Made by a program: the position numbers and the translations under genes
In this document: piece after piece, positions 6,328-55,207 of the stretch
Numbering within the stretch: the stretch's first letter is position 1
How the letters are laid out: each line of letters begins with the position of its first letter
The notes under the pieces: model-generated
Told to the model about the DNA's origin: nothing
Seen by the model: only the letters and a program-made list of their open reading frames with translations
Databases searched by the model: none
Assembly (NCBI GenBank): GCA_015143295.1
Contig: JABCRI010000866.1
Span: 53,059 to 117,058, forward strand
DNA length: 64,000 nt
From: Tetracentron sinense
Taxonomy: Eukaryota > Streptophyta > Magnoliopsida > Trochodendrales > Trochodendraceae
Direction: 5' to 3'

Positions 6328-6876
6328 ATCCAGTCGACTGGATGAGAGCATCTAGTTGTTTGGATGATCGCAGAGTCCAGATGGTGAATTTGGACTTTCA
6401 TCCAGTCATCTAAATGATAGTATCCAGTCATCTAGATGATGCTGATTATCTCTAAATCCATTTTTTTTTACGATTTTTAATGATTCGAATGGTTTCCAAA
6501 TACTTTTGAATAACTTAATATAGGTAAAACTCAAAGTTTTATGATCATTAAAACAAGTTAAAATGATTATTAAATGATCATGAAGGATTTCAAAAAACTG
6601 GAAAAATGATTCAGAGCCAAAATCAGAATTCTGGCCTATCCAGTCGTCTGGATGGTGCAATATTTTGCACACATCCAATTTTCATAATTATGATGTTTTG
6701 ATTCAATTCCAAAACTTTTTTCCTTTGTTTATAAATACGATTAACATCTTTTTAAGATCATTTAAAAGGTATAACATTGTCTTTCATTGATCTTAAGATT
6801 GATCAAAGAGTGCAAACCATGGAGTTAACGCATAGAGGCCAGAACTCAAAATTTTGGCCTATCCAATCGACTGGAT
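6328..6876. repeat. TCGA-centred dyad cluster in LTR A
   Basis: ATCCAGTCGACTGGAT at 6328-6343 is a perfect 16-bp dyad. Imperfect versions lie at about 6400-6440, 6638-6653 (ATCCAGTCGTCTGGAT) and 6861-6876 (ATCCAATCGACTGGAT). They are spaced irregularly and lie upstream of the LTR TATA box. Confidence 0.8.
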
Positions 6877-9178
6877 GGTGCAATATTTGCACAGATCTAG
6901 TTTTTTCATACCTTTTAAGATAGGATTGAATTCCAAGGTTTTGTGCTTTAACTTTTTGAGGATTGTTAACTTGTTTTTAAGTCCTTGAACATATTTTTAA
7001 TTTGGTCAAAGGAACCTAAGGTCATTCTAAGTAAATGAGCTTTTTCAACAACCAACCATTGATGACTTTTTAAAATAAGACCTAATACTTTTCCTACCTA
7101 ACAGATGACTTTCTTGAGTCTTGGATCTTCAACAAATGTTCATAACTTGATATCTTCCAAGATGACTTCTTTAGCTTTATGATCACCTTTCTTCTTCTTT
7201 AATTTGCATTGATCTTCAATTTGATCTAAATGACTTGACTTGATGAAGGATCTTCTCATAGATGGTGTCACTTTCATGCTTTTTCCTTGAATGACTTTGC
7301 TAATGCTTTTTGTCGCGACCCAAAATCCACCCTACGAGTTAGAGTGAATCTTGGACGACTTATCATGACCTACATAACTTGCTTGACAAACCATCCTGCA
7401 AAATACATGGAGCATATATAAAAGAGGATAAAATAACGAAAGCATAAACTAACATGGCACAGCGGAAGTTTAACCAAAACCTCTATGTATATATATGATC
7501 CAAGTTTATACAAAAGTCTAAACAAAAGAAGGAGTGCACATGCCCGACAAAATACATGAGTATAAAATCTCTCGTGGTCACCCACACTCACTTAGAATCT
7601 ACCACCTAATAATAACCATCTACATGAGGCTCCTCAACAGGGACCTCCTCGATGTACTCCTTCTCCACCCATGGGCCTGGAGCACAAATGTCAAAAGGAG
7701 CAGCCGCTCCACTAACACCTGTTGATATGAGACATGCGGCTAAGCATGAAACTCAATGAATACCAAACACTAACCAACAGTCATAGCAATACAATAATGG
7801 AAATAAAGCGGAAGCAGTTCATATCATAACAGAAAAGTAAAACAGTTTATATTTCATGCTTGCATCACATCAAAACCGGAAAACTCTTGAAATCGTCGTG
7901 TGCTTGACTTGACCTGAAAATACTATTTTCGTGCTTGAAAACTTGTCTTGTCATATTCTGTCTTGTTTATCTTGTCGTGTCGTGTTATGTCTTGCTTGTC
8001 TTGTCGTGTCATGCATGTCATGTCATGAAATGAAAATGCTCATGCTTGCTTGGAAATTAAACATGCTCATGCACTTGGGATGTTAGTGGCCTTGAACAAC
8101 TTGAAAGGAGGGTGGTGTAGACCTCTTCTTTAAGGAAATGAGAAGCGACTTGTGAGGGAGGGTGGTATAGAACCCTCTCTTATCGAAACATGACATTAAA
8201 CTTGCATGATTGAAGGCCCACTAACATCTTGCTTGACGTGTTCTTGTTCATGGCATGTTCTTGTTCTTGTTAAAAGTGAGGTAAAACATATTTTAAGATA
8301 TATCCTACCTCTATTTACCAACCCTTACATTTGGCCTTGTCATAGTGTTCGTAAATCGAGAATAAAACTTTTGTCTTGAAAAACTCGATAAACCATGTCA
8401 TGTAGGTCATGCTTGTGGTTTCGTGTACATGCTATCACTTGAAATTAAACATGACATATGGAGTTCAATAATACATGGAATAACATTCATTTCAACACAC
8501 AAGGATATTCATGCCGTTATGGAAAGCGAATAATCACACTATCATAAACCCTAGAAGTTTCATATGCTTTAAATTCATCATGCTTTTCTAGAAACAATTA
8601 TCATTCTCTTCACCTTGACATTTCATCAAACATTTGGTGTGTACATTATGGTTAAAGCCTCCTTCTTGCTTTTTTAGATGGATCAACGCTCATGGCATAC
8701 ATGTGTGTTCATCATTGGTGAAATACCTTTCCCATTTCATTCATCACAAAACATCACATGGCATCCATCGCCCATACACAACCATCCATCTCCATCCATT
8801 CATCTCATCTCATTATCATGTTTAGAATTTAGGGAAAGACCATAAAATGAAGAAAAGAAGAAAAGATGAACTAGAAGGATAGTATAGGGTACCGACCTTC
8901 AATAGAATGAAGAAAACCCTTGATTTGGAGTCCCAACTTTGAAGAAGAACCCCTCTTGGGTTTGAGAAACTCTAGTTGATTTGGGGAAGATCCTTGCTTG
9001 AAAATCTTCAAGCTTGAGCTTCCCTTGATCTCCAATCAAGACCCTCTTTGGAGGTTTTTCCCAAATTTTCTCATCTCCTTTCTCCCCTCGTTCTCTCCTC
9101 TAGGTGTAGAAAAGTCTCTAATGAAGTTCCCTAACAAGTCAAGGGTTTAAAACCCTTAATTTCGGCATCAGCTACCAC

Positions 9179-9460
9179 GTGCGATCAATCGCACACTTAA
9201 CTGCGATCAATCACGGATCAGTGTAATCGATCGCACATGGATGCAATCTATCGCACATGAACCCGAACACTTTCGTCTGATTTCCCCTTGCATGCGATCG
9301 ATCGCACACTCTTGCGATCGATCGCAGATCCTTGCGATCGATCGTAGATCCTTGCAATCTGTCACACCTGGCATCCTATCTATCGCATATGGTCCAGAAT
9401 GTTTGGGACCAATTTCACTTGCATGCGATCGATCGCACCTAATTTGCGATCGATCGCACT
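9179..9460. repeat. TCGA-centred dyad cluster in LTR B1
   Basis: TGCGATCGATCGCA occurs perfectly at 9293-9306, 9313-9326, 9424-9437 and 9445-9458. Decayed copies lie between (TGCGATCAATCGCA and similar). The decay is mostly CG to TG or CA, as expected from cytosine methylation. Confidence 0.9.
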
Positions 9461-9489
9461 CCCCAGATTTTGTTGTTTTCCCTCATTTT

Positions 9490-9566
9490 TACCCACTTTG
9501 GTATTTCGGCCATAACTTTTGACTCGTTCGTTGGATTTTGACGATTCAACTTGCGTTGGATTCATC
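9490..9566 (-). repeat. Conserved anchor block beside the dyad cluster (B1)
   Basis: The block reads GGCCATAACTTTTGACTCGT, then TTTTGACGATTCAACTT, then GTTGGA on the plus strand. Near-identical blocks flank the dyad clusters of B2 (31311-31376), C (18837-18905 and 26519-26585) and, inverted, D (10919-10976). Confidence 0.75.
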
Positions 9567-9892
9567 TTTCAAATGGGAACATTTTTGGTATTTTAGAATC
9601 TTCAAATTCTACTTTATTCATGGACCGAATTATCCCCAAAGTTGACTGATCTACAAATGGCGTTTAGAAACCCGGATTTTCAATAGATCCGACTTTAGAA
9701 ATTCAACTTTTAATTCAAGAAAATGACCTTAAGGCTTTAATATATACCAAAAATATCCGGGGTGCTACACTTTTTGTATTCTGATTTTCACATAAACTCA
9801 ATAGAGACATTAGTACCACATATCATATTCCATTGGTGTGTTATCATCAAAATCAATGATGTTACCTTAGGTAGAAAACCTATGGGCTAACA

Positions 9893-10510: not shown

Positions 10511-10918
10511 ATTTGTTATGACTCGTAATTATCTCCAGTTATAATCGAACTCTAGGGAGTCTGGTTATGCCACTGATGCTGCCACGTGTCCCTTTTGACA
10601 CCCCTTAATTGTGATTAAGATTCACCCACCTATCCTTGGTTTTTAGAAAAAAAAATATCAAAAAAAAAAAAATTAGCCTTTGGAGTTAGTGAATTTTAAC
10701 TGAGGTTAAATTTCCTTTTTAATTTTTTTTTTCTAAAAACCAAGGATAGGTGGATGAACCCTAGGGGTGGGTGAATCTTAACTGTAGCATCCCAAACTTT
10801 TCTATATTTAATGAATAGCACTTTCGTGCCTAATTGGTCTTCCTCGTAGTCAAATTAATAAATAAGAGAGAAATCGGAAATTCTGAAATGTCAGAAATGT
10901 TCATTTTCAAAAGACGTA

Positions 10919-10976
10919 CCCAACGCAAGTTGAATCGTCGAAATCGGAGGAGCGAGTCAAAAGATATGGTCAAAAC
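10919..10976 (+). repeat. Conserved anchor block beside the dyad cluster (D)
   Basis: It contains CAACGCAAGTTGAATCGTCG, then GCGAGTCAAAAGATATGGTC. It is the reverse complement of the block in B1, B2 and C, in keeping with the opposite orientation of D, and lies directly before the dyad cluster. Confidence 0.75.
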
Positions 10977-10993
10977 AGTCCAGACATGCAGAG

Positions 10994-11180
10994 CACCGAT
11001 CGCTCGGTCCAGTCAGCGATCGATCGGTCCAAAACCGATCGATCGGTAGCTGTCGCACGGTCAAAACTTTTGTATGAGAAAATTTTCCAGAGAGTAGTTT
11101 TTTGACCTGTTGCTCGGTCAGAGTACCGATCGATCGGTAGGCAACCGATCGATCGGTCATAAGCACCGATCGCTCGGTCC
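10994..11180. repeat. TCGA-centred dyad cluster in LTR D
   Basis: ACCGATCGATCGGT occurs perfectly at 11034-11047, 11125-11138 and 11144-11157. ACCGATCGCTCGGT variants flank them. The same 14-mer and the same CGCTCGG variant occur in the copia LTR F. Confidence 0.9.
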
Positions 11181-12157
11181 CCGTGTTTTGCAGAAATTTT
11201 TGTAAGGGCATTTTCATCTTTTGGGCGTTAAACCCTTACCCATAAGGGCTTGCCCGAGCCTTTAGGGCTTCATTTACCATCCTTAGAGTATTTGGAGAGA
11301 TAGAGAGAGAGGAGAAGGGGATTTCCTAACCTAGGTTTTCCTCTTGAGAAGAAATCAAGAGTGTAGGCTACCCAAGGTTTATTTCAAGGCTTGGATTCTT
11401 CAAATCCAAGGTTCAACTCGTGTGGGACTCCTCCTCCAAAGTTAGGGCAGAAACTCACACAAGTTTTTCCAAGGGGTTTCTTCCTCAACTCAAGCTTTCT
11501 TCAAGCAAGGACTTCTTCTTTCAAGTTGGAGCTCAAATCAAGGTTCCTACCAAGATCAAGCCTTGATCTAAGGTTAGTACACCCTACTAACTTTCCCTAG
11601 CGATAATCTAGGCTTTTTATGTGAAATGTGATTCATGTTAGTAGGTTTCCTTCCTTGTAAAATGTATCATTCTAATAATTATAAACAAGAAAAGGAAAAA
11701 GGATATGGATGTGTGGATGAGAGATTGATTGAGGCGATGGGATGCCGAATGTATGATGTGTGGTATGTGTAATGGAAAAATGGAGGATGGGCATTTTACC
11801 AATAATGAACTCACTTTGATTATTGGATGAAAAATATGCACTAAAAATAAGAAGATGAACTATGGAGGAACATTGCATGTGATGTGTTTGACAAAATGCC
11901 TAAACTATGAAATAATGATTTGAAGGAAGAAAAAGGGAAATAGGCCTTATACATTTATTCTCATGAATGATGAATGAATTTAAATACCATGTTGATTACT
12001 CAAATTCTCATATGCATATATTGTGAATTGAATGGTGATGTCATACCTCTCTTATTATCCTTATTCCATGGTTGTCACGATTGACACGTACACGAGCACG
12101 CATGAACCGAGATTTCAAGAGCATGTGCATATAATAACCAACAAGAAAATATTGCAT

Positions 12158-12440
12158 ATCAAGGAGGTTGGTAGCCCAGGGACATTCGGGTACTAGCCTC
12201 TGGCTCACAAGAAAACCCCTAAAACACCTATTGTCAAGGAGGTTGGTAGCCCAGGAAAAATTCGGGTACCAGCCTCTGGCTCACAAGAAAATTAAACAAG
12301 TAATAAAAATCACATATTGTCAAGGAGGTTGGTAGCCCAGGGACATTCGGGTACTAGCCTCTAGCTCACAAGAAAACCATACATATCAAGGAGGTTGGCA
12401 GCCCAGGGAGATTCGGGTGCTAGCCTCTGGCTCACAAGTT
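12158..12440. repeat. Minisatellite in LTR D
   Basis: There are four direct copies of a roughly 57-bp core (TCAAGGAGGTTGGTAGCCCA ... TAGCCTCTGGCTCACAAG), starting near 12158, 12235, 12319 and 12387. They are separated by short AT-rich spacers of 10-30 bp. Confidence 0.8.
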
Positions 12441-13285
12441 ACAAGATGCAAGTTTACAAGATGATGATAAGGCATTCATGCATGCACCCATACATGATTT
12501 TCACAAGGCATATCGAGATATGGAAACGGGTTTTCAAGCATGAGTTTTATCGGCGTTTTTGCATTCATGCACATCAAGATGATAATATTGCTCCATGTTT
12601 AATATTATTTAAATTCTATGGGTTTACTATTGCCTGGAATTGATGATTGGTATGGTACTACTCCTTGCATGTTTATTATTGTTATGGATAGCTAGTAGCT
12701 TGTACTTGCTGAGTATTCCATGCTCAGTCGTACTTTCATGTCGGCAGGTACTGAGGGAGCCCTCGACCCAGAGCCTTGGGTTGAGGATGAGTATATCGAG
12801 GAGAGAGAGCCGTCTATCCCACTGCAGTCTCAGGCGGACCGAGACCTTGATGTGTGGCCATACCTCGACTACTGTTGAGGGGAGAGTACGAGAGGGTCTT
12901 TTATGTATTTTGACATTTTGATAGGTGGGTCTGTCCACCTTAGACTTAGACATGTTTGTATATATGTTAACTTGGAATACTATGTTGGAAATCTTAGAAG
13001 AAAAGAAAAAGTTAGTTTACGCTTCCGCAATTTATGTTTAGCTTGCGCGCTCTGATTATCATTGTTTGGTACTGTAATTATCTTGTTCATTACAGGATGG
13101 TTTGGCAGGTACGTATAGTCACGCCTAAAGTATCCCTAAACTCGTAGGGGGTATTTTGGGGCGCGACATTAACCACAATTAAAGGATGTCTAAAGGGACA
13201 TGTGGCAGCATTAGTGGCGTAACCGGAATCTCGCGAGTCCCGTTACAACTGGAGAGAATCACGAGTCATTTGTTATATATGGACA

Positions 13286-16982: not shown

Positions 16983-18038
16983 TATAATGACCCCAAATCC
17001 TACCTTGAACAAAATAGGACTTTGGGTCACCACATTTCTTAAATCTACTTAAAATCTCATGACATTCAAAGCATACTACATGAGTCTTAAAAAATGAGAG
17101 TAATAAAATTTCGATATATAATATCAAGTCATCTGGCTCAAGTCTATGGTCAACAGAACAACCTATTATAAACAAATAGTCTAATACTCAACTATAAAGT
17201 AATCTGATGAGCAACATCATGTAAGAGTTTATCACAAATCTCTCAACAAAAATCAAAACATAAACTAATAGGGTAACTATAAAAGCCTTTGGCTCCCTCC
17301 TCGGAAGGCTTACCTTATCCTCTTTCTTCGACGTAAGCCTCCTCAATCCAAGGCTCTACCACCAACTCTGGCTCCACACCTGCCAAGACAACAGTCTGAC
17401 TGAGTACAAAAGCACTCGGTGTATATAAAATCCAACCAACAACATAGTATACCTGCACTTAGTTAGAACCATATCTAATAGCATAATAACATAATCAGAG
17501 TGCGGAAGAACATATGCTTATATATATCATATCATCGCCTTGACTCGTGTACTTGTGAGAACCTTAGACTTAAAAAGAACATATTTATCATATGCTTATG
17601 CTTATTAGACCACGTGCTTGTGAGATGCTTATGCTTATGCACTTATTCAGATCATACACTTCTTCAGATCCCTCACTGAGCTTATTCAGTATGATAGGCG
17701 TATGCAATGCTTATGCTTATGAGTTTTGAGCAGCTTATTCAGATCTCTCATTGGACTTTTTCAGAATATCAGGCGTATGCAATCCTTATGGTTGTGGTCC
17801 ACATGTGTGACTTGTGAGACTCTTCTCTTAACATACATGTGTGTTTGTGCATAAGTATCGTAATTAACATTCGAGTTGGTAATCGTTCAGATTCTAATCT
17901 CCTACCATGGAAACTCCACTACGCTGTCCCATACCATATAGTTAGAGAATTTCCGGTTTGAAAGATTTTCCTCTAAATTCTTACCTTCCCGAATATCAAT
18001 TACCATGCAAGTAATTAGGCATAACTTAACAAACAATG

Positions 18039-18074
<36 letters not shown>

Positions 18075-19312
18075 TATCATGATTTTTAGCATAATTTATA
18101 ACCAATTTCCAACAATTCCATAGTGTCATATTAATATTTATCTCCTCAAGCATTTTAACAAACACCTTGGGTGCGTAATTTATGAATGCATTGTCCTTTT
18201 CTGTTTCCAACATTTCACCACTCCATAATCTATTCATACAACCCAAAAACAATCCACATTTATACATTCATCCCATCCTCCATACATTCCATCCATATTA
18301 TTAAACCCCATTTCCATCCATAATAGCTTAATTCATACAAAATTAGGGGAAAACATATCTAATTTCTATTTATATCATTTCTATTATACTAACATTCACA
18401 AAACATCATAATAGGGTTGATTTGGATAGTATATAGACCTTAGGGATCCTTCCCTTGGATCCAAATCGCTCCCAAGAAGCTTTGAGGAAGATCTCCAAGC
18501 TCTTCTTATAATTTCCAAACTATCTCTTTCTTCTCCAAGAAATTTTCGCTCAAAACCCTAGGTTTCCTCTTCTCCCTTGCCAAATTAGGTTAGAAATGGT
18601 TTAGAAACCTAAAACCCTTGAAATAGACCCCTATTTATAGTCCCAAGGGTTAAAAACCCAAAAAACATGACTTTTTAAAAAAAATTTGGATGAGCGATAG
18701 ATCACACTTATACCTGAAAGAAAGCTCCAAAACTCATCTGTATGCGATCGATCGCACTTTCTATGCGATAGATCACACTATAGGTGCAATAGTTTGCAGT
18801 CCCCCTTCCGGATTCCAACTGATTTTACATTCGCTTTGGTATTGTGACCATAACTTTTGATTCGCTTATTGGATTTTGACGATTCAACTTCTGTTGAACT
18901 CATCTTTAAAAAGGAAACAGATTTAGCTCTAATGGATAAATCCTAATTCTGAGTTTTTAATAGTCTAAATGGGCTTTAAAGCTGACTGGTCTAAAATTTC
19001 AGCAGATATAACATCGGAAAAACCACTTTTGACTTAGCTTAGACTCAAAATCTGGAAAATCATTAACCATGAACCTTAAAGATGGTTTCAATACCTTTCT
19101 AATGGTTCAAGAATCACTCGATTCTGATAAACGGTGATAATACTAGAGCTTCCTAAAGTTGAGGTTATGTTAAGGCATCCCTCTACAACTTTGATTAAGC
19201 CTTGATCACACCACAACAATTAGATATTAATACAAACACATTAAAACATCACAAAGATTATTATACTCCTAAAACTTGCATTAAAAGCATGAAAAAGATT
19301 TAGGTCTTTACA
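16983..19312 (-). repeat. 3' LTR of element C
   Basis: This 2330-bp LTR is homologous to 24601-27001 along its length. The outer end is mutated (TATAATGACC instead of TGTAACAACC), and the inner end is TCTTTACA. It contains (AT)15 at 18043-18072, a CTATAAATAG TATA box (18631-18640, minus) and dyads near 18696-18805. Confidence 0.85.
18696..18805. repeat. Dyad cluster in the 3' LTR of C
   Basis: A perfect TGCGATCGATCGCA lies at 18743-18756, with decayed copies such as TGCGATAGATCACA at 18764-18777. The cluster is 56-165 bp from the TATA box, upstream in LTR orientation. The anchor block follows at 18837-18905. Confidence 0.85.
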
Positions 19313-20832
19313 TCCTCTCCCCCTTAAAAGAATTTCGTCCCCGAAATTTACGTACCATAGGTGAACAAGTGCGAATACTTTTGCGGACTTCGAATTTTCT
19401 TTCCCAAATAACCTCTTCTCTAGAGTGATGCTCCCATTGCAAGAGTACAAAAGGAATGACCTTAGAACATAAGACTTGCTCCTTCCGGTCCAAGATTTGA
19501 GCCGGTTGCTCCAATAGAGTCAAATCTTCCCGAATTTCTAATGGTTCCAAATCAATGACGTGTGAAGGATCTGAAATATACTTCCTCAACATAGAGATGT
19601 GAAAGACATTATGCACACCTGCTATATGAGGTGGCAAGGTGACACAGTAAGCAATTTCTTCGACTCGGGTGATGATCTCAAAAGGACCCACATATCTCGG
19701 ACTGAGCTTGCCCCGTTTGCTAAATCTCATCACCCCTTTCATAGGTGAGATATTGACAAACAGAAAATCTCCAACTTGAAACTCAAGATCTCTCCTGCGA
19801 GTATCGGCGTAGCTCTTCTACCTACTTTAACCTGATTTCAACCTCTCTCTGATCAACTGAATTCTATCCGCAGTCTGACCAATGAGCTCGAGTTGCAGAA
19901 GCTTCCTCTTGCCAACTTCATCCCAATACAATGGTGAACGACAACTCCTCCCATAGAGTGCCTCAAATAGTGCCATCTGAATACTGACCTGATAGCTATT
20001 ATTGTAGGCAAATTCACCCAACGGCAGGTGATCATCCCAACTGCCCTGAAAGTTTAACATGCAAGCTCATAGCATGTCCTCTATGATCTGGTTCACCCTC
20101 TCTATTTGCCCATCTATTTACGGATGAAATGCCGTACTGAAATCTAAATGGGAACCCATAGCCTGCTGAAAACTCTTCCAGAATCTGGAAGTAAATCTCA
20201 GGTCTCGATCAAATACAATGGTAACTGGCACTCTATGCAAATGGACTACTTCTTTGATATAGAGGTTAGCCAATTGGTTGGAGTTGAAAGTGGTCCGATA
20301 AGGAAGAAATTGAGCCGACTTAGTCAATCGATTGACCACAACCCAAATGGCATCAAAGTTCTTCGCTGTCCTTAGCAAACCAACAATAAAGTTCATGGAG
20401 ATATTTTTCCACTTCCACTCGGGAATAGGAAGTGACTGAAGGATTCTTGTCCGTCTCTTGTGTCCGGCTGAAGCCCCGGTGAATGAGGAGTAGGCAATCT
20501 CGGATCCGGGGTGAAACATCTCCACAATGGAAACAACCTCCAGTAATTGCCCTACACTTTCCTGCTCTATGCCTCTTTCTATACTGGCTACATACATCAT
20601 ACAACTAAGTCCCAACATTAGGTGAGTCAACCTGAGTATGCCTCTGATATGGGGTAGGCCTAGCAATCAACATAGGACCTGATGTCCTTGGCCTCTTGTC
20701 TTGCAGTTTTTGTCTATCTACCTGCATTTCTCTCTTTCTCAAAAACTTTGTCGATTTTCTCTCAGCAATCAAAACTCTCTCACTAACTTCCCGGTAAGTC
20801 TCAAGATGCAAAATCTCAACCTTGCCTCTGAT
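19308..20832 (-). pseudogene. Element C gag C-terminus joined to integrase
   Basis: Read on the minus strand, the order is as follows. The gag C-terminal segment (YIRGKVEILHLETYREVSER, near 20830) comes first. A CCHC zinc knuckle CFHCGDVSPRIRDC (near 20500) follows, its His replaced by Pro. Then, with a frame change, comes an integrase region: LPIPEWKWKNISMNF, DRDLRFTSRFWKS, and further on GKLSPRYVGPFEI and HNVFHISMLRKY. The tail ILDRKEQVL...REEVIWERKFEVR is chromodomain-like. Protease, reverse transcriptase and RNase H, normally about 2 kb between knuckle and integrase, are deleted. Stops and shifts break the integrase at several points. The last frame runs into the 3' LTR. It is not functional. 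Confidence 0.8.
19313..19330 (-). other. Polypurine tract of element C
   Basis: On the minus strand AAGGGGGAGAGGA lies immediately before the 3' LTR start TGTAAAGACC. This is the usual second-strand primer. Confidence 0.8.
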
Positions 20833-24596: not shown

Positions 24597-24600
24597 CCAC

Positions 24601-27001
24601 TGTAACAACCCCAAATCCTACCTTGAACAAAAGAGGACTTTGGGTCGCCACATTTCTTAAACCTGCTTAAAATCTCATGACATTCAAGGCATATTACACA
24701 AGTCTCCAAAAATGAGAGTAATAAAATTTTGATATATAATATAAAGTCATCCGGCTCAAGTCTATGGTTAATATAACAACCTACTATAAACAAATAGTCT
24801 AATACTCAACTGTAAAGTAATTTGATGAGCAACATCATCTAAGAGTTTATCCTAAATCTCTCAACTAAAACAAAAACATAAACTAATAGGGGTAACTATC
24901 AAAGCCCCTGGCTCTCTCCTCGGAAGGCTCACCTTCTCCTCCTTCTTCGATGTAAGCCTCCTCAATCTAAGGCTCTACCACCGACTCTGGCTCCACACCT
25001 GCCAAGATAACAGTCTGGCTGAGTACAAAAACACGCGGTGTATATAAAATCCAACCAAAAACATAGTATACTTGCACTTAGTTAGAACCATATCCAATAG
25101 CATAGTAACATAATCAGAGTGCAGAAGAACATGTGCTCATATACATCATATCATCGCCTTGACTCGTGTACTTGTGAGAACCTTAGACTTAAGAGACAAC
25201 ATACTTATGAGATGCTTATGCTTATTAGACCATGTGCTTGTGAGATGTTTATGCTTATGCACTTATTCAGATCATACACTTATTCAGATCCCTTATTGGG
25301 CTTATTCAGTATGACAGGCGTATACAATGCTTATGCTTATAAGTCTTGAGCAGCTTATTTAGAACATACACTTATTCAGATCCCTCATTGGGCTTATTCA
25401 AAACATCAGGCGTATGCAATGTTATGGTTGTGGTCCACATGTGTGACTTGTGAGACTCTTCTCTTAACGTACACGTGCGTTTGTGCATAAGTGTCGCAAT
25501 TAACATTCGATTTGGTAATCGTTTAAATTCTGATCTGGCACCATGAAAACTCCACTATGCTGTCCCATACCATATAGTTAGAGAATTCCCGGTTTGAAAG
25601 ATTTTCCTTTAAATTCTTACCTTTTTGAATATCAATTACCATGCAAGTAATTAGGCATAACTTAACAAGCAATCACACACACACATATATATATATATAT
25701 CTTATCATGATTCTTAGCATAATCCATAACCAATTTCCAACAATTTCATAGTGTCGTATTAGTATTTATCCCTTCAAGCATTTTAACAAACACCTTGGGT
25801 GCGTAAATTATGAATACATTACTCTTTCCCATTTTCAACATTTCATCATACCATAATCCATCTATACAACCCAAACACAATCTACATTCATCCCATCCTC
25901 CATAGTATTTATCTTCCTCCATAAATTTCATCCACATTATCAAACCATATTTCCATCTATAATAGCCTAGTTTATACAATATCAGGGAAAAACATATCTA
26001 ATTTCTATTTCTATCATTTATGTCATACTAACATTCACAAAACATCATAATAGGGTTGATTTGGATAGTATATCAATCTTAGGGATCCTTCCCTTGGATC
26101 CAAATCGCTCCCGAGAAGCTTTGAGGAAGATTTCCAAGCTTTCCTTGCAATTTCCAAGCTATCTCCTTCTTCCCCAAGAAATTTCTCCATCAAAACCCTA
26201 GGTTTCCTCTTCTCCCTTGACAAATTAGGTTAAAATGGTTTAGAACCCTAAAACCCTCGAAATAGAACCCCTATTTATAGCCCCAAGGTTAAAAACCCAA
26301 AAAATGTAACTTTTTAACAAAATCTAGGCGCGAGTGCGATAGACCGCACTATAGGTGCGATAGATATCAGTTATACCCGAAAGAAAGCTCCAAACCTCAT
26401 CTGTATGTGATTGATCGCACTTTCTGTGCTATAGATTGCACTAATGTGTGATAGATCACATTATAGGTGTGATAGATCGCAGTCCCCCTTCCAGATTCTG
26501 ACTGATTTTTCCTCTGCTTTGGTATTTTGACCATAACGTATGACTCGCTTATCAGATTTTGACGATTTAACTTGTGTTGGACTCGTCTTTCAAAAGGCAA
26601 AAAAAATTGTATCTAATGGAATAAATCCTAATTCTGAGTTTTTAATGGTCTCAAAGGGCTCTGAAGCTAACTGGTCTGGAATTTCAGCAGACAAAAAAGT
26701 GGAAAACTCACTTTTGACTTAGTTTAGACTCAAAATCTGGAAAATCATTAAACATGAACCTTAAAGAGGGTTAAAATACTTTTATAATGATTCAAGAATC
26801 ACTCAATTCCGATAAGCAGTGACAAAACTAGAGCTTCCTAAAGTTGAGGTTATGTTAAGGCATCGCTCTCTTTACAACTTTGATTAAGCCTTGATCACAC
26901 CACACCAATTAGATATTAATACAAATGCATTATAACATCACAAAGACTATTATATTCCTAAAACTTGCATTATTTGCATGAAAATAATTCAGGTCTCTAC
27001 A
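24601..27001 (-). repeat. 5' LTR of element C
   Basis: This 2401-bp LTR spans TGTAACAACCCC to GTCTCTACA on the plus strand, with orientation minus. The TATA box CTATAAATAG is at 26271-26280. It differs from the 3' LTR by many substitutions and small indels, indicating an old insertion. Confidence 0.85.
26330..26490. repeat. Dyad cluster in the 5' LTR of C (decayed)
   Basis: Repeats of TGTGATAGATCACA, TGATTGATCGCAC and similar forms are recognisable as mutated TGCGATCGATCGCA. The anchor block follows at 26519-26585. Confidence 0.75.
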
Positions 27002-32950: not shown

Positions 32951-33017
32951 AGTTAAATTGGGATTTTCCCCTATTACGAGATTTTAAGGGTATTTTGGGG
33001 TTTTTATAATCCTAAGG

Positions 33018-33030
33018 CTATAAATAGGCC
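33018..33030 (+). promoter_or_regulatory. TATA box of LTR E
   Basis: CTATAAATAGGCC lies shortly after the dyad cluster in the same orientation as the LTR. It is a strong candidate for the U3 core promoter. Confidence 0.65.
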
Positions 33031-34691
33031 TTCTATTTCAAGGATTTGAGATCCCTAAGTCTCTCAAACCCTAATTTGGCAAAGTAGAGAAGAAACTTAG
33101 GGTTTCCAAAGGTTGGCTTGCTTGTGAAGAAAGAAATTGTTCAAAGGAGAAGAAGAAAGCTCGGAGATCACTCCTCAAGCCTTCCTCGAATGATTTGGAT
33201 AGAAGGGAATGATTCCTAAGGTCGATATACTTTCTAACATAACTCTACTAAGATGTTTTGCATGTTTAAATAGATAAAATGAAGATTTATATGTGTTTTT
33301 CTTGTTTATGCATATGTTATGGATTTTGTAATATGAAATTTTTTTTTTTTTATGTGCATTAGGTGTTTTATAAAATATGTCTTGACTATTATGGAAATGG
33401 AAATGATATTAAATGTTATCAATGTAATGAATGGAGGATGAGAAATGAGATGCAAGATGGGTTGAATGCATGACTACGGATTGTGAGTGATGTATGTGGA
33501 GAATGGGCTAAAGTTATGGAGTAAATGGTGGAATAAATGGAATGATAGAAGTGAATTGGGGTGTTAATGCTTACTTTTATATCTTGGAAAAATGCAAAAT
33601 TATGGTATAAAATTATTAATGATTGGTGTGGTGATCGACATTCGGGTAGTCCAAAACTTAGAAGAAGTCTTCCAAGTCAGAAAATTCTCTAATCAAGAAG
33701 TCATGAACTTTGTGGAGTTTCTTGGCGAATGATCGGAATCTAAGGGATGATCGATTCGAATTCCAACCATGACACTTAAGTAATTTTTCAAATGCATGGT
33801 AGAAAGTAAGGTCCACAGATTCACATGTCTCACAAGATGATGCATTAAATATGGACATGCCATGTATTATGCTTTGAAAGAATATCCCTTGGTTACGAAC
33901 ATACCACTCTATGCGTTGTCGCGACTATGTTATTCAACATGAAAATACTGTGAATTATGCATTAATGGGATAAAAACACTATGAATTATGTGCTGACGTG
34001 ACAAAAAAATGATATTATGTGTTGACGGGACAAGTTACTTATCATGAACACGTATTAATTATGCATATGCTTCGTACATGTACACGTCCAAGAGTTACAT
34101 AAGTACACGAGTCAAGATGATGATATGACGTGATCACATGTTTTCCACACTCTGATCATGTCAATATCGTATGAAACTGTCATGAATTATGTAACTGTTG
34201 TATGAACCTGATATTGAGTATGTACATATCTAAATGTTATTGTTAGTTGGATTGTATATATGCTGAGTGTTTTCAATACTTAGTTGACCTGTTATTGTCG
34301 GTAGGTATAAATTCAGAGTACATGATGGAGTTGTGGGTTGAGGAGACATACGTTGGGGAAGTAGAAGGTGAGCCTCCTGTAGAGGGAGCTCGAGATCTAG
34401 ATAGGTGGCCGTATTATTAGGCCTTGATTTTAGTTTACCTTGAGAGAAAATTGTAATAGACTTGTGATACTTTTAGTAATGTTGCTTTAGAATTAGTTTT
34501 GTGGGAATCATGATGGTTGATCCGAACTTGGTTATATTTGGGTGGTTTTGTCATTTATATATTGTTATTACTAAAAGAAATTTAGGCTCTCATTTTAATA
34601 TTGCCTTGCATATTATGGAATTAAGCAGGTTTAAGAAATGTCACGGGCCCAAAGTCCTATTATAACTAAAGTGGGATTTTAGGGTGCGACA

Positions 34692-43834: not shown

Positions 43835-43840
43835 CTTTTA

Positions 43841-44971: not shown

Positions 44972-46194
44972 TGAAATTACTCTGATCAATGATCTCTATG
45001 ACCTAGAGGGGGGGGGGGGGGTGAATAGGTCTATCTAAGAACTTCTAACCAATTTTTAATTTTTTGACTAATTAGATTAGAAATCAATAAACAATTCACA
45101 CAAACAATCCACACGAATCAAACACCAGATTTTTACGTGGAAAACCCTTACGGGAAAAAAACCACGGGACCTCGTCCAGCAACAAACTTTACTATAAGAA
45201 GAATTCAAGTACAAGACAAGATCTTACCCAAACCGGACTCGACGTTCCTAGGTACAGAATCTTACTCTTGATTTCCACGAACCAGCAGGTTCGATCTCCG
45301 CCGTAGCAGCTTCGGTTCCTAACCGACCAAATCTTCTCAAGCTACTTCAATACCACGATCACACACGATCGATCTCCTTCCATGAAGGCTCCGGATCATA
45401 CACCGGACACACACACAAAGTGTGGGGTTGTGAATCAATTTAGAAAGCTTCAAACCCTAGAGGGATCTCATATAGATTTGAGATCACACAATGCAAGATC
45501 AAAAGAATAGATCTATACTTGCATTCTCTAGGATGATTGAAAAAGGAGGGATGACTAAAGATCTATGAGGAACAATGGAAAAAGCCCTAGAAAGGTTTCT
45601 CAGACCTCTACTCTTTCAAAAATAAACAAAGATCCGAATTAGGTCTCCAAAAATTTGTTTATATAGGGTTTAGAAAAGAGTCCAGAAAAAATAAAATTAT
45701 GTTTACGAGGACCGATCGATCGGTGCTTATAACCGATCGCTCGGTCCAAAACCGATCGATCGCTACTTTTACTGAGAGATCGGTTAAAAATTGTCTCTCT
45801 GAAAAAATACCCCATATAAAGTTTTTGACCAGTCGATAGCCACCGATCGCTCGGTAGGCCACCAATCGATCGGTCGCAACACCGAGCGATCGGTTGAGAC
45901 AGAATTTCAGCCTAAACATTTTTTCTTTTGTTTTTTGTTTGATTCAAATAAGATCAAAACTCTTTGGTAGGCTTAAAACTATCCTCCTAGGTATGTTTAG
46001 AGTTATCTATGTCAAATCTAACCTAGGTAGGGGTCTCTAAGTCCATTACCTGTCTAGATCCGGAGTAGAAGCTTTTTCTTCAATATCTTCCGTCTTCTTG
46101 AAACTTTAACTCTTCCGACAAGTTGAACAAGACACAACACTCATGACCTATCTAATGATCACAGAATTTGCCAACACCTATTTCTGGATTTACA
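44972..46194 (-). repeat. 3' LTR of element F
   Basis: On the plus strand it spans TGAAATTACTCTGATC to CTGGATTTACA. A homopolymer G run near 45009-45021 is longer than in the partner LTR. TATA box CTATATAAA (minus) at 45658-45666. Confidence 0.9.
45711..45897. repeat. TCGA-centred dyad cluster in the 3' LTR of F
   Basis: Units are ACCGATCGATCGGT (45711-45724), ACCGATCGCTCGGT, ACCGATCGATCGCT, ACCAATCGATCGGT and ACCGAGCGATCGGT, beginning about 45 bp from the TATA box. They are the same 14-mer family as in gypsy LTR D. Confidence 0.9.
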
Positions 46195-48667: not shown

Positions 48668-51600
48668 TCACTGAACTCCGCACAAACCAATGGATTTCCT
48701 AAGGAACTCAAACCTAAGGGAATCTAAGGGTTTTGTGAGAATGTCTGCAAATTGTTTCTCTGTTTGGACATACTCAATACACACAACATTTTGCTCAACT
48801 AAATCACGAATGAAGTGATGCCTAATTTCAATGTGTTTTGTGCGAGAATGTTGAACGGGATTTTTGGAAATATTGATAGCACTTGAATTATCACAATACA
48901 CAGTCATAGTGCCTTGTTCAATCCCGTAATCATGCAACATCTGCTTCATCCACAGAAGTTAAGTGCAACAACTGTCAGCTGTTATGTACTCAGCTTCGGC
49001 AGTGGACAATGAAATTGAATTCTGCTTTTTGCTAAGCCAAGCAACTAAGCAGTTTCCAATATAGAAACATCCTCCGGAGGTGCTCTTCCTATCATCAGCA
49101 TTTCTAGCCCAGTCGGCATCGGAATATCCAACTATTGTGGCATTGGTATCAAAAGAATACCAGAGGCCAAATGATGGAGTTCCACTTACATATCGAATGA
49201 TACGCTTGACTGCAAGTAAGTGAGACTCTTTTGGGCTCGCTTGATAGCGGGCACATGCTCCAACACTAAAGGCAATGTCTGGTCTAGTGGCAGTTAGGTA
49301 GAGCAAACTACCAATCATGCTTCTGTAAGAAGTTTGATCAACATCCTTACCTGAAGTATCTTTACTAAGTTTTGTTGTAGAACTCATAGGAGTCCTAGCA
49401 TGCTTAGTAGAACTCATACTAAATTTCTTCACCAGATTTTTAGCATATTTGATTTGAGATACTGAGATCTCAGAATCTAATTGCTTGATCTTAAAACCAA
49501 GGAAGAAACTCAGCTCACCAACCATGCTCATTTCAAATTCATTTTTCATTTGTTCAGCAAATGATAGAGCATGTAAGTCTAATGTGGAACCAAACACAAT
49601 GTCATCAACATATATCTGGGCGATGACAATATCACCTTTCACATTTTTTATGAAAAGGGTTCTGTCTACTCCCCCTCTCGAAAATCCCTTTTCCAAGAGA
49701 TAAGTAGTCAACCTCTCATACCAAGCTCTTGGAGCTTGCTTTAAACCATAGAGAGCCCTTTTTAATCGATAGACTTGATCAAGGTGATGTGGATCTTCAA
49801 ACCCTTTTGGTTGTTCCACATAGATCTCTTCCTGTAGAATGCCATTCAGAAAGGCACTCTTAACATCCATTTGAAACAACTTGAATTTCATATGGCAAGC
49901 CACAGCTAGAAGAATTCTGATTGATTCTAGCCTGGCAACAGGAGCAAAGGTCTCATCGAAGTCAATGCCTTCAATTTGGGTGTATCCTTGTGCAACTAAC
50001 CTAGCCTTATTTCTTATGATAGTACCTTTTTCATCAGATTTGTTCTTGAAAATCCATTTGGTACCTATCACATTTGTATTTTAGGTCTAGGTACTAAATA
50101 CCAAACATCATTCCTAGTAAACTGAAGTAACTCTTCTTGCATTGCATTGATCCAATTATCATCTACAAGGGCTTCAGCTACATTCTTGGGTTCAAAAGAT
50201 GAAGTATAGCAAATGTAGCTAACTTCATTTTCAATTTGTTTCCTTGTTCTCACTCCACTTTCAAGATCACCAATAATATCTGTGGAAGTGTGAGGACTTA
50301 TGACCCTTGGATGTGTAGGTTTTAATGGAGATGATTGCTTAGTAATAAGTGGAGTTGAAGAAGTTTCAACATTTTCATTTTCAGCACTATCATCATCCTC
50401 TAGTTGCACATTTTCAACACCAGAGTCATCCACAACTACATTGATGGACTCCATAATTGTAGAGGTTCTCAAGTTATACACTCGATAAGCTCTACTGTTT
50501 GTGGAATACCCAAGAAATATCCCTTCATCACTCCGGGATTCAAGTTTGCCCAGTTGCTCTCTATCCTTAAGGATATAGCATTTACTTCCGAATTCTCGAA
50601 AGTACTTGACACTGGGTTTCTTGTTATTCCACAACTCATATGGGGTTTTCATTGTTCCAGGCCTTAGAAAAACTCGATTAACTATATAACAAGCAGTGTT
50701 AACTGCTTCAGCCTAGAAATGAGAAGCTAGATTATTGCTATGGAGCATAACTCTAGCCATCTCTTGGAGAACCCTGTTCTTCCTCTCCACAACACCATTC
50801 TGCTGAGGTGTAATGGGTGCAGAAAATTCATGTTTGATACCCGACTCAACACAAAAGTCGTTGTACTTAGAGTTTTCAAACTCCTTTCCATGATCACTTC
50901 GAATTCGAGTGATTGGACATCTTTTCTCATTTTGAATTTTCAAGCAAATACTTTTGAAATTTTCAAAAGCATCAGATTTCTCTCTCATAAATGCTACCCA
51001 TGACATTCTTGAGAAATCATCAACCATGACTAGGATGTATCGCTTTCCACCTAAACTTTCAGTTCTTGTAGGACCCATAAGATCCATATGAATTAATTCC
51101 AGTGGATATGAAGTAGCAATACTTAAAGTCTTCTTATGTGGGGTTCTAATTTGTTTACCAATCTGACATGGCCCACACACAGCAGTAGAAGGCTTTCCTA
51201 GTTTGGGCACACCTCTCACAAGTTCTTGCTTTGAGATTTTGCATAGGTCTTTGAAGTTCATGTGACCTAGCCTTCGGTGCCACAAATCAACTTCCTCAAT
51301 TTTAGCCCTATTACAGACATTTGAGAAATTAGAACTAGGGATTAAGCTGTAGCAATTGTCAGTGGTTCTCAACCCTTCTAGAACACACTTACCTTTACCA
51401 TTAATGACTAAGCATTTATTTTGGGTAAAGTGCACAGCATGGTTATCATCACATAGTTGACTTATGCTAATCAAATTAGCTTTCAGTCCTTCAACAAACA
51501 AGGCATTTTTCAATTTTGGTATGCCTGGTGAATCGATGATACCCTTCCCTTTAACTAATGACTTGCTTCCATCACCAAAAGTAACAATCCCATCTGGACA

Positions 51601-51700
51601 ATCCTCAAATCGAGTAAATAGAGACTTGTTACCTGTCATATGCCGAGAACACCCACTGTCGAAGTATCACATTTCTGTGTTTTGGGCTTTAAAGGCAGTA
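48668..51700 (-). pseudogene. Sirevirus F pol: protease, integrase, RT, RNase H
   Basis: Nearly intact pol. Protease motif YFDSGCSRHMTG (near 51650) is preceded by a TGA where Trp is expected. The integrase keeps HRRLGHMNF..CGPCQIGK (zinc-binding HHCC), MDLMGP, RSDHGKEFEN and NGVVERKNR, so all three acidic residues (DDE) are present. The integrase-RT linker is at 50068-50652, where a frame change occurs near 50070; there is also a stop near 50713. RT (48959-50071) has [22 protein letters not shown] and IYVDDIVFG. RNase H has [19 protein letters not shown], and an in-frame TAA (near 48956) separates it from MKQMLHDYG. The frame ends at 48668. The lesions are few and mostly C-to-T type. Confidence 0.9.
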
Positions 51701-53947
51701 TGAATGACAAGGCACTTAAGGTCATCCTTTCTCACATACACAGTTTTTAAACTTTGTTTAGACATTTGAATATTGTTCTGTGTAGTAGAGACCTTTTTCT
51801 TTTTAGACCTTCTAGTCCTCTTTCTGTTCTGTTCAGTTCTAGCATAATGATTTGTCACATTCTTTCCTCTTGAGTAATCATAAGGAGTGAATGGACCATT
51901 TTCATTTCTAGACATTTGAGCAATCCTATTGACATCTTCGCTCAAAATTCTAGATTCCCTTGACTTTGATTTTGGTTCCATGAACCATTTCGGGGAGCTC
52001 TTCTAAACGCATTACAGTTTGGTCGAATGTGACCTCTTACACCACAAAAGTGACATGTGGGTATGAATCTAGAAAGAGGAGGAGGATTTCTTCTAAAAGG
52101 AATTTGATTCCTCAAAGCATTCACCCTAGGAGCTGCATTTCTAGGCTTTACAACATTTGTATAAGCCTTAGTACTTGATGTGGAAGGTACATTCACTTTG
52201 GGATCAGAATGTATTGGTTCAAACACAGCACTAGCCATTGTACCAACAGCTAAAGGACCAGCTGGTGTGTCAGCATGTCCTATCCCAGATCTATTAGAAT
52301 TTGATCCATATTTTCTAACTAATTCATCTAGGCAGCTAGTATTTCCAAACATTCTTACTTCTTTCTCAAGAGTATAGACCTTCTGAATCAAGTCAGTCTT
52401 GTCTTTAAGGGTTATATGATGTTCTTTTTCAAGAAATTTCACCTTATCGACAAGAGAATCTTTTAAAGATTCTAGCTCCACTAATAGAGTCCTTGACTCT
52501 CCAACTTCTTTCAAGGAAGTGTCTCTTTCAACTTCTAATCTTCTGACAACATTAGTCAATGAGACATTTTCTTCCAAAAGACATTTAACTTTTTCAACAA
52601 AAGCTTCTTTCTCATTTTCAAGCTGACTAACTAGAGCATTCATCTCCTTTGCTTCTAGTTTACAAGTATCTCTTTCATTTTGAATGATTTTGAGTTTTTT
52701 GCTCAGAGATTTTTGCTTTAGTCAGTTTCAAGCTTTCAGAATACAACTTATCATAAGTTGTTTTCAAATTTTCATCACTTTCAGAGTCAGTATGACTCTT
52801 CTCAGTGTATCCACTAGACTCAGCGTGACTACTTTCATCACTTCTATCCTTCTCATCAACCACTGAGGTAGTCTAAAGAATCCCAGAAAGGGATACAGTG
52901 AAAGCAGTATGATTATCAGTTTCTTCACTTGAAGAAGAACTGTCTGATTCTTCATTCTCGGAATCACTGTCATCCCAACAGGCATTCATCACTTTGCCCC
53001 TACTTTTCTTCTTGTTAGGACAGTTAAATGAAATATGACCGAAGCCATGACATTCATAACATTGAACACCTTGGGGTTTCTTGTCGCCACTCTTGGAATT
53101 TTTCTTGATTTCCCAGGGCTTAGACTTTGACTTCTCAAAAGATTTTCCTTCCTGTTTAGGATTGAACCTCTTTTTCGTTCTAAAAAATTTCGAAATTTTT
53201 TAACGAAGAGAGCCATTTCTTCCTCATCCATCTCACCATCATTGTTATCGTCATCCAAGATTCCTTAATTGATTTCAAGGCTAAAGATTTGGTTTTCTTG
53301 GATGGTCGAAGATTGAGTTCATAAGTTTGGAGTGAACCAACTAATTCTTCAATCTTCAGAGAGTCAACATTTTTACTCTCTTCAATAACAGTGACCTTGG
53401 GTTGAAATCTCTCAGGTAGAGATCTAAGGACTTTTCTAACTATTTTAGACTCAGTTAATCTTTCACCTAAGTTGAAACTAGCATTGACAATGTCACTAAG
53501 TTTTGCATAAAATTCATCAAATGTGTCATCGTCTTCCATTTTCAAATATTCAAATTTGGTGGTTAACATTGGAGTTTTGAGATTTTAACAGTGATCGTAC
53601 CCTCATGGGTAATCTCTAGAATGTCCATGCCTCCTTTGCTGTTTCACATGAAGAAATTCGTCTGAATACTCAGCTGTGACTGCAGTAAAGATAGCATTGA
53701 GTCCTTTAGTATTCCAACCACTTGTCTCAAGCTCTTCTCTGGTCCATTCATTAGAATATTTGACAACAGTCAAATCACCTAGAGTTTTCACAGGCGTCGT
53801 CCACCCATTTTGAATAGACATCCAAATTCTCTCGTCAATTGATTTGAGAAAAGCTCTCATACGGGCTTTCCAATATGCGTAATTATTCCCATCGAACAGT
53901 GGGGGACGAGAGACTGAACCGCCCTCTCTTAGAGTACTCATGATCAC
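51700..53947 (-). pseudogene. Sirevirus F gag
   Basis: The frame starts near 53947 (MSTLREGGSVSRPPLFDGNN, ATG 53941). A gap or shift near 53590 precedes the UBN2-type segment (MLTTKFEYLKMEDDDTFDEF, LRSLPERFQPKV). The first zinc knuckle is CYECHGFGHISFNC (near 53060). An acidic Ser-rich region is followed by a long coiled coil (52643-52300, LENEKEAFVEKVKCLLEEN, LVDKVKFLEKEH). The second knuckle is CHFCGVRGHIRPNC (near 52050). The length and coiled coil fit Sirevirus gag. Frame changes near 53200, 52870 and 51960 make it inactive. Confidence 0.85.
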
Positions 53948-53999
53948 AGAGTAAGATATACAAGATCACACTAAAGGGTTTAGTCTTAAAGGTGAACCC

Positions 54000-54011
54000 G
54001 CTCTGATACCA
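54000..54011 (-). other. Primer-binding site of element F
   Basis: TGGTATCAGAGC on the minus strand, two bases inside the 5' LTR edge (54014). It matches initiator tRNA-Met. Confidence 0.85.
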
Positions 54012-54013
54012 AT

Positions 54014-55207
54014 TGAAATTACTCTGATCAATGATCTCTATGACCTAGAGGGGGGTGAATAGGTCTATCTAAGAACTTATAACCAATTTTTAATTTTTTA
54101 AATAATTAGATTAGAAATCAATAAACAATTCACACAAACAATCCACACAAATCAAACACAGCAGATTTTTACGTGGAAAACCCTTACGGAAAAAAACCAC
54201 GGGACCTCGTCCAGTAACAAACTTCACTATAAGAAGAATTCAAGTACAAGACAAGATCTTACCCAAACCGGACTCGACGTTCCTAGGTACAGAATCTTAC
54301 TCTTGATTTTCACGAACCAGCAGGTTCGATCTCCACCGTAGCAGCTTCGGTTCCTAACCGACCAAATCTTCTCAAGCTACTTCAATACCACGATCACACA
54401 CGATCGATCTCCTTCCACGAAGGCTCCGGATCACACACCGGACACACACACAAAGTGTAGGGTTGTGAATCAATTTAGAAAGCTTCAAACCCTAGAGGGA
54501 TCTCATATAGATCTGAGATCACACAATGCAAGATCAAAGAATAGATTTATACTTGCATTCTCTAGGATGATTGAAAAAGGAGGGATCACTAAAGATCTAT
54601 GAGGAACAATGGAAAAAGCCCTAGAAGGGTTTCTCAAACCTCTACTCTTTCAAAATAAACAAAGATCCGAATTAGGTCTCCAAAAAGTTGTTTATATAGG
54701 GTTTAGAAAAGAGTCCAGAAAAAATAAAATTATGTTTACGAGGACCGATCAATCGGTGCTTATAACCGATCGCTCGGTCTAAAACCGATTGATCGGTCTA
54801 AAACCGATTGATCGCTACTTTCACCGAGAGATCGGTTAAAAATTGTCTCTCTGGAAAAATACCCCATACAAAGTTTTTGACCAGTCGATAGCCACCGATC
54901 GATCGGTTGAGACAGAATTTCAGCCTAAACATTTTTTCTTTTGTTTTTTGTTTGATTTAAATAAGATCAAAACTCTTTGGTAGGCTTAAAACTATCCTCC
55001 TAGGTATGTTTAGAGTTATCTAAGTCAAATCCAACCTAGGTAGGGGTCTCTAAGTCCATTACCTGTCTAGATCCGGAGTAGAAGCTTTTTCTTCAATATC
55101 TTCAGTCTTCTTGAAACTTTAACTTTTTCGACAAGTTGAATAAGACACAACACTCATGACCTATCTAATGATCACGGAATTTGCCAACACCTATTTCTGG
55201 ATTTACA
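54014..55207 (-). repeat. 5' LTR of element F
   Basis: It matches 44972-46194 with few substitutions; the main differences are in the dyad cluster. TATA box CTATATAAA (minus) at 54691-54699. Confidence 0.9.
54743..54909. repeat. TCGA-centred dyad cluster in the 5' LTR of F
   Basis: Units are ACCGATCAATCGGT, ACCGATCGCTCGGT, ACCGATTGATCGGT, ACCGATTGATCGCT and ACCGATCGATCGGT. Compared with 45711-45897, one roughly 18-bp unit is extra and a block of about 40 bp is missing near 54900. Confidence 0.9.

Follow-up and report, generated by a model that had tools for sequence, protein, structure and literature searches.

In a 64-kb stretch of the Tetracentron sinense genome (contig JABCRI010000866.1; the whole analyzed stretch is called the window below), long terminal repeats (LTRs) of gypsy and copia retrotransposons alike carry one kind of promoter-proximal module—clusters of palindromic dyads centered on TCGA in the U3 region—as a preliminary description made from the letters of this DNA had proposed. 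One such module, a 190-bp cassette, aligns without a gap between a gypsy-type LTR, D, and the 3′ LTR of a copia element, F. We judge it fairly probable that the clusters are detachable, promoter-proximal activating arrays for a dimeric host factor, and that the cassette is common to gypsy and copia by descent. These two superfamilies are usually regarded as distinct lineages, with LTRs so diverged that they cannot be aligned. A bounded common cassette, if real, would mean that regulatory DNA crosses the gypsy/copia divide within one genome; it would explain fast expression change of families and point to one host factor serving both superfamilies. If this reading is true, retrotransposons may trade the switches that activate them.

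An Ungapped Cassette Links D and F

The comparison concerns the following features, F3 and F5 being the modules of the 3′ and 5′ LTRs of F.

10783..13168, plus strand: D, a solo LTR assigned to the gypsy type, with the 5-bp duplication TTAAC
10995..11184, plus strand: D cassette of 190 bp, made up of three dyads, a spacer, one weak unit and three dyads; gap-free and colinear with F3
11050..11107, plus strand: dyad-free spacer of D, matched by the F5 spacer (nhmmer, E 4.4e-5)
44972..46194, minus strand: 3′ LTR of F, assigned to Sirevirus; duplication TAAGT; the polypurine tract (PPT) AGGGGGAG-AT adjoins
45705..45894, minus strand: F3, 190-bp cassette colinear with D; TATA box at 45657-45666, gap 38 bp
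54013..55207, minus strand: 5′ LTR of F; primer site CA/ATTGGTATCAGAGC
54744..54907, minus strand: F5, cassette with a unit number unlike that of F3 (39-bp and 19-bp unit-sized indels); TATA box at 54690-54699, gap 40 bp

D 10995-11184 and F3 are identical at 142 of 190 positions, with no gap and with identical unit spacing. The match is not confined to the palindromes: outside the six dyads, 64 of 106 bases of D agree with F3 in register and 61 with F5, and these are the two best non-self positions among all positions on both strands (mean 27.0, SD 4.5). It is also bounded. Along the D–F3 diagonal, each 20-bp step of the first 200 bp has 10–18 identical bases and the step after it 11, falling to 2–5 in the eight upstream steps and to 1–9 from 220 bp on. 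Inverted F–D matches stem from the palindromes and were excluded from the homology count.

A search with the spacer alone gave the same partners. Apart from F itself, the 58-bp dyad-free spacer of F5 retrieved only D (E 4.4e-5) and B2, a second gypsy-type LTR (0.0055), below E 1 (nhmmer); both matches lie between dyad groups and in the right sense. For cross-family spacer pairs, none of 5000 shuffles reached any of the five scores. Because D and F match without a gap outside their dyads and the spacer search finds D and B2, the cassette of D and F appears to share ancestry, so the palindromes would not be convergent only. The preliminary description had left open whether the module arose or spread; for D and F, the ungapped 190-bp homology and the spacer-only search argue for spread. 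A transfer from gypsy to copia is slightly favored as its direction, because the spacer search across the window finds it in two gypsy families but in F alone of two Sirevirus-like LTRs.

Pure convergence, in which each family evolved TCGA-centered dyads for one host factor with no exchange of DNA, is in our estimate unlikely. It would fit the variation of dyad letters by family, the lack of significant homology to F in the B1, C and E spacers, and the failure of the F5 spacer search, run across the window, to find anything in the other Sirevirus-like LTR, A. Sirevirus Tnd-1 likewise has a TCGA-centered motif, an exception to the CGG-CCG core of its relatives (PMC2829016). The in-register agreement of non-dyad bases, the common unit spacing and the retrieval of D and B2 by the F5 spacer nevertheless make convergence hard to keep for D, B2 and F; for A versus the rest it may hold.

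Two further accounts concern D and F alone. A host promoter fragment captured independently by each would likewise yield limited ungapped homology, yet D and F hold the cassette in the same sense and in the upstream part of the LTR, and no result here favors host capture; we hold it to be very improbable. Gene conversion of recent, local origin is suggested by the location of D and F in the same chromosome region, 35-44 kb apart, but its chance is negligible. It is excluded because the divergence of D from F3 (25%, or 75% identity) far exceeds the 2.7% by which the two LTRs of F differ, placing the D–F split much earlier than the insertion of F.

Superfamily Assignment

The cross-superfamily claim depends on where D, B2 and F belong. 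F is a Ty1/copia Sirevirus as judged from its coding domains and junctions.

48962..53584, minus strand: copia reading frames of F with gag, GAG-pre-integrase, integrase and RVT_2 domains

The Pfam domain set is that of Ty1/copia, including RVT_2, integrase and gag. The PPT AGGGGGAG is followed by AT and then by the TG of the 3′ LTR, giving the Sirevirus junction, and the junction of 5′ LTR and primer site, CA/ATTGG-TATCAGAGC, matches a Sirevirus feature. The 3′ end of the LTR has the C-rich integrase signal, judged by eye against the description in PMC2829016. Sirevirus linkers contain four PPT copies on average (PMC2829016); the 2,767-bp linker of F has one exact (terminal) copy and one at 1 mismatch. 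In A, the C-rich integrase signal and the LTR ends are visible and there is no coding sequence; the 3′-end profile of F matches it weakly at 5567-5541 (E 0.46). A is probably a Sirevirus LTR, on this weak evidence.

C is a Ty3/gypsy chromovirus. Its integrase C terminus matches SH3_Tf2-1 (Pfam, 4.1e-22), and the integrase agrees at 72% over 145 aa with protein P0121 up to P0121 residue 172, P0121 having a Chromo domain at 133-178; Pfam called no Chromo domain in C itself. E is classed as a gypsy chromovirus through the homology of its integrase and LTR to C. Both are putative members of the Tekay lineage.

19311..19817, minus strand: integrase C terminus of C, with SH3_Tf2-1 and chromodomain region
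31721..32462, plus strand: integrase region of E, homologous to C (77.6% over 756 bp)
10839..10999, plus strand: conserved upstream block of D, common to B1, B2 and C (C-only profile)
9480-9640 (B1), 31289-31449 (B2), 18818-18980 and 26501-26665 (C), all minus strand: the same block

For B and D the LTR itself is the guide. A profile of the block built from C only finds B1 (1.4e-20), B2 (1.9e-17) and D (1.4e-13), the next match (0.033) being itself in D, and a profile of the whole C LTR finds E (2.5e-54), B1, B2 and D. The R-U5 of D matches B and C; that of B2 matches E. A whole-LTR profile of F matches no gypsy LTR outside the module, meeting D and B2 there only, and has a single weak match elsewhere (56321-56430, E 0.019). 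B and D, both solo LTRs, are therefore read as gypsy-type, because they share the block and R-U5 homology with C/E and share none with F outside the module. That D and B2 are instead copia LTRs, so that the F match falls within one superfamily, would be compatible with their state as solo LTRs lacking coding sequence. The block-profile scores of 1e-20 to 1e-13, the R-U5 match of D to B and C and the confinement of F matches to the cassette speak against such a misassignment, which we regard as quite improbable.

Most Dyad Clusters Lie Upstream of a TATA Box

The remaining LTRs and their clusters are as follows.

5524..7310, minus strand: A, lower part of a Sirevirus-like LTR (sequence; weak profile match) with a 3′ end like the C-rich integrase signal; B1 interrupts it, and its upper end would lie near 9891
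6326..6440, minus strand: dyad cluster of A, its units of the ATCCAGTCGACTGGAT type and spaced 22-50-22; two more units lie at 6638 and 6861
6224-6235, minus strand: TATA box of A, gap 90 bp
7311..9769, minus strand: B1, a solo LTR of the B family, assigned to the gypsy type; 5-bp duplication CTTTT
9180..9458, minus strand: dyad array of B1, 11 units of TGCGATCGATCGCA type, spacings 20-22 and 50-51
16990..19312, minus strand: 3′ LTR of C, assigned to the gypsy chromoviruses
18693..18798, minus strand: C3, dyad cluster of the 3′ LTR; TATA box at 18629-18640, gap 49 bp
24608..27001, minus strand: 5′ LTR of C
26335..26481, minus strand: C5, decayed dyad cluster; TATA box at 26269-26280, gap 49 bp
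29265..31688, minus strand: B2, a solo LTR of the B family, lying within the pol of E; 5-bp duplication GGCGA
31131..31285, minus strand: dyad array of B2, CGGTCGACCG type, with an F-like spacer at 31163-31217; TATA box at 31045-31055, gap 74 bp
32611..34679, plus strand: 3′ LTR of E, assigned to the gypsy chromoviruses, end approximate (C LTR profile 5.1e-44 and 2.5e-54)
32789..32947, plus strand: dyad cluster of E, spacings 50-21-53-21; TATA box at 33018-33029, gap 67 bp

All dyads quoted in the preliminary description are present: A 6326-6345, B1 9293-9458 (four perfect TGCGATCGATCGCA), D 11034-11157, C 18743, B2 31154, E 32790, and F 45711 and 54894. Their cores are CGG-CCG in B2 and E, CCG..CGG in F and D, GCG..CGC in B1 and C, and CCAG..CTGG in A. 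Against a background of 100 local dinucleotide shuffles of the window, the enrichment was pronounced: perfect TCGA-centered dyads of at least 14 bp number 13 (shuffle mean 0.16, maximum 1), and those of at least 10 bp number 19 (2.48, maximum 7). Eleven of the 13 lie in the U3 clusters, and the other two are isolated, at 20323 inside C and 53181 inside F. Across the whole 64 kb, every site within 2 mismatches of ACCGATCGATCGGT (18/18) or TGCGATCGATCGCA (13/13) falls in a cluster, and the internal parts of F, C and a further copia element, X1, together with the X1 5′ LTR, hold no site within 3 mismatches of three 14-bp dyads. Dyads centered on ATAT and TATA are also in excess over shuffles, and we take these as simple AT repeats.

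Several details given earlier needed revision. The count of six families is correct only if B is counted once, since the solo LTRs B1 and B2 belong to the same family. The dyads are indeed clustered; the range of three to six units per cluster becomes 4 to 11 when degenerate units are included. The preliminary description put clusters some 45–170 bp upstream of a TATA box; in seven of the nine LTR copies the gap from cluster edge in the sense direction measures 38-90 bp. TATA boxes were sought only with strings picked by reading the sequence, which do not match a TATA-like stretch that lies nearer to the cluster in A, at about 6285-6297. A symmetric central CpG in every unit was not found: a central CG occurs in 32 of 58 units and in none of the six in C5. 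Perfect dyads number one in C3 and none in C5.

The Core Promoter Is Discordant with Its Flanks

The two copies of the B family are alike on both sides of the core promoter and differ within it.

8950..9480, minus strand: core-promoter segment of B1, unalignable with B2; the block and R-U5 on its two sides align

Between B1 and B2 the block is 84% and R-U5 76% identical (66-94% in 60-bp R-U5 windows where more than 30 bases align), whereas the core promoter of about 500 bp is unalignable, its windows reaching 34-50%. Alignment is also poor where the two LTRs begin, over 70-180 bp. Groupings change accordingly along the LTR. The block unites B1, B2, D and C. R-U5 joins B1 with B2 and then D, and C with E. 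The core instead groups B1 with C (E 4.7e-6) and C with E (1.1e-21), and separately B2 with D (2.8e-16), B2 with F (2.6e-5) and D with F (2.4e-21). Because block, core and R-U5 groupings conflict, the pattern is that of a replaceable promoter segment, apparently swapped between gypsy families. The core comparisons contain dyads, and the cross-superfamily claim therefore rests on the ungapped and spacer-only results above.

Immediately upstream of the dyads, the block (some 160 bp) is 67-84% identical among B, C and D, better than most of R-U5, and may be a separate regulatory element.

Unit Turnover, CpG Content, and RNA Structure

Unit number changes within LTR pairs of one element: F has seven units in its 3′ and six in its 5′ LTR. 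The modules of the F pair differ by 39 and 19 bp, those of the C pair by 20 and 24 bp. Of the nine gaps of at least 3 bp in the C and F LTR pairs, four lie inside the module.

CpG is abundant in the clusters (observed/expected 0.98-1.80 in eight of nine, only 0.41 in A, and 0.49 for the window), and it is unstable. CpG columns of one element's LTR pair differ 3-6 times as often as other columns (C, 32.6 vs. 9.9%; F, 9.8 vs. 2.2%; the X1 halves, 18.4 and 28.6 vs. 4.8 and 5.0%), and in R-U5 of B1 and B2 the figures are 36.2 vs. 16.0%. Inside and outside the module the CpG columns differ to a similar extent, 9.4 and 10.0% in F and 35.7 and 32.1% in C. Because CpG columns change faster, in the module much as outside it, perfect CpG-rich dyads seem to decay after insertion and to be kept by selection in active copies.

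An RNA-level element, with arrays kept for, or suffering from, hairpins in the 3′ U3 of transcripts that feed small RNAs, as reported for maize Sireviruses, carries a low probability in our assessment. Compared with shuffles, the A, B1, D and F modules fold much more stably (z −6.0 to −9.1, the lowest value being that of D), and a threshold of −40 kcal/mol per 110 nt on the sense strand is reached by B1, D, F3 and F5 and just by A (−40.4, in 1-nt steps). A link of structure to small RNAs is reported for maize Copia LTRs (PMC10760457). Against this account, the structure of B2 does not exceed that of its shuffles (z +0.73), C and E are weak (−2.5 to −2.8), and B2, C3, C5 and E miss the threshold on the sense strand; it also does not predict the position upstream of TATA. 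Since B2 lacks structure and C and E have little of it, we treat small RNAs as a rival and not as the lead: the earlier suggestion that the dyads seed them is possible for some modules and fails as a general rule.

A Proposed Mechanism and Its Weaknesses

We infer protein binding and activation along the following lines. Each dyad in U3 would be a predicted site for a symmetric (dimeric) host DNA-binding protein, and the sites would form an array 38-90 bp upstream of TATA, recurring roughly once per two turns of the helix and interrupted by gaps of 50-71 bp. The array may act as a detachable cassette, the same by descent in D, in part in B2 (gypsy), and in F (copia Sirevirus). The core promoter would have been swapped among gypsy families, with the core of B1 like that of C and that of B2 like that of D in flanks of one family. 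Transfer might proceed by recombination or by template switching during reverse transcription of copackaged RNAs.

The spacing is regular. Over seven arrays, unit centers lie 19-22 bp apart (30 intervals, mean 20.4), and the long gaps measure 50, 51, 50, 50, 50, 53, 61, 71 and 71 bp; this set omits C3 and F5, the partners of C5 and F3, and two distant A units (216 and 223 bp). Most of the long gaps lie near whole turns of DNA. With the D/F gap counted once, 13 of 5000 random sets, each of eight long gaps, were equally concentrated; a figure from one gap per family (0 of 5000) used hand-chosen gaps and is given no weight.

More generally, it is close to an even proposition that the superfamilies draw on a common pool of promoter cassettes, with helically phased dyad arrays for a dimeric host factor passing between gypsy and copia. 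We hold just as tentatively that an array can be exchanged within a family while most of the LTR stays the same, as in B1 versus B2, so that the regulatory sequence would evolve as an independent, mobile component. Such replacement perhaps tracks changes in the host factor or sheds a silenced version.

A number of results weigh against a shared, host-activated cassette. Other spacer queries are weaker (F3 to B2, E 0.076; D to B2, 0.1; B2 to D, 0.11), and blastn-short aligns just 12 bp of D with F5 (E 0.15), ranked below a chance match of 13 bp (0.037). The spacers of B1 and C have no homology to F, and that of E is only suggestive: of 2000 shuffles, 3 equaled its score with B2, 6 that with D, 34 that with F5 and 94 that with F3. 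A looser, gap-tolerant masked alignment gave z 3.1-3.2 for D–F and −0.3 to 0.4 for B2–F; we judged it too permissive. A joint alignment of the nine modules was interpretable only for D, F and B2. The gypsy placement of B and D comes from the homology of their LTRs, since they have no coding sequence of their own, and, as noted in the preliminary description, no TATA box is recognized in B1 or D. The test of helical phasing was post hoc, and several gypsy gaps in it may be inherited and not independent; a 20-bp period alone could arise by tandem duplication. The CpG rate is somewhat inflated, a column being counted if either copy has CG, and within the module it rests on few differing columns, 3 of 32 for F and 5 of 14 for C. 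All the evidence comes from one window, six families and one genome.

Relation to Known Systems

The likeness to Sireviruses drawn in the preliminary description is apt. Sirevirus repeat motif (RM) boxes are palindromic motifs upstream of TATA, called Sirevirus-specific among the Ty1/copia elements compared, present in eight or more copies per element and also found in the linker of elements that have an envelope gene (Bousios et al. 2010, PMC2829016). The arrays resemble them in having many palindromic, CpG-rich units in the upper half of the LTR, shortly upstream of TATA, and the dyads of B2 and E have as their 10-bp core the Vitis Sirevirus motif CGGTCGACCG (PMC2829016, Table 3). Unlike those RM boxes, arrays also occur here in the gypsy chromoviruses C and E and in the gypsy-type B and D, and the F dyad is CCG..CGG, not CGG-CCG, with 6-7 units per LTR and none internal (within 3 mismatches). 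The passages of PMC2829016 consulted describe no cassette common to different families.

Like the palindromes of maize Sirevirus LTRs, the arrays lie in the cis-regulatory part of copia LTRs, which is fast evolving (PMC10760457 and PMC5311732). Maize Ty3 elements generally lack an obvious structure peak (PMC10760457); in contrast to the maize Sirevirus case, gypsy LTRs here carry arrays, some with no marked RNA structure. The integrase SH3 and chromodomain region of C, the homologous integrase of E and LTRs of ∼2.1-2.4 kb resemble the chromovirus Tekay (Del) lineage as presented in the main text of PMC6317226, where the string "palindrom" has no occurrence. In the titles and abstract openings of the papers listed from open-licence literature, neither dyad arrays in gypsy elements nor a promoter cassette common to gypsy and copia was found. 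What appears new is thus the occurrence of such palindromes in gypsy elements and the cassette that spans two superfamilies, those of Sireviruses being known already.

Other Features of the Window

Self-comparison, reading frames, Pfam matches and junctions show that the window consists of nested plant LTR retrotransposons next to a reading frame resembling histone H4. F is inserted in the 3′ LTR of X1, a copia element with no Sirevirus PPT. Protein searches yielded plant copia and gypsy relatives, among the best 120 of 8000 and of 4863 matches. Rfam at gathering scores matched nothing. In viral contigs, no relative of the F reverse transcriptase was confirmed (tblastn, 20 pattern stretches), the F spacer pattern and the paired dyads were both without match, and the block pattern was matched by three stretches.

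The frame at 2532-2903 (minus), which we take to be histone H4, has a Pfam match to histone-fold families. A DUF761 reading frame at 58026-58433 (minus) is possibly a host gene. Between F pol and the 3′ LTR, an extra frame at 46788-47567 (minus; Pfam Transposase_32, PF20167) sits where some Sireviruses carry an envelope-like gene. Short tandem arrays lie within or beside gypsy elements at 12159-12438, 15882-16486 and 23326-23667. An inverted repeat of about 140 bp at 10621-10758, just upstream of D, is perhaps a small foldback in an older LTR starting near 10357. Three long self-complementary stretches at 59288-60505 (365, 255 and 159 bp), whose very stable predicted folding reaches −84 kcal/mol per 110 nt, are possibly foldback elements or a source of small RNAs.

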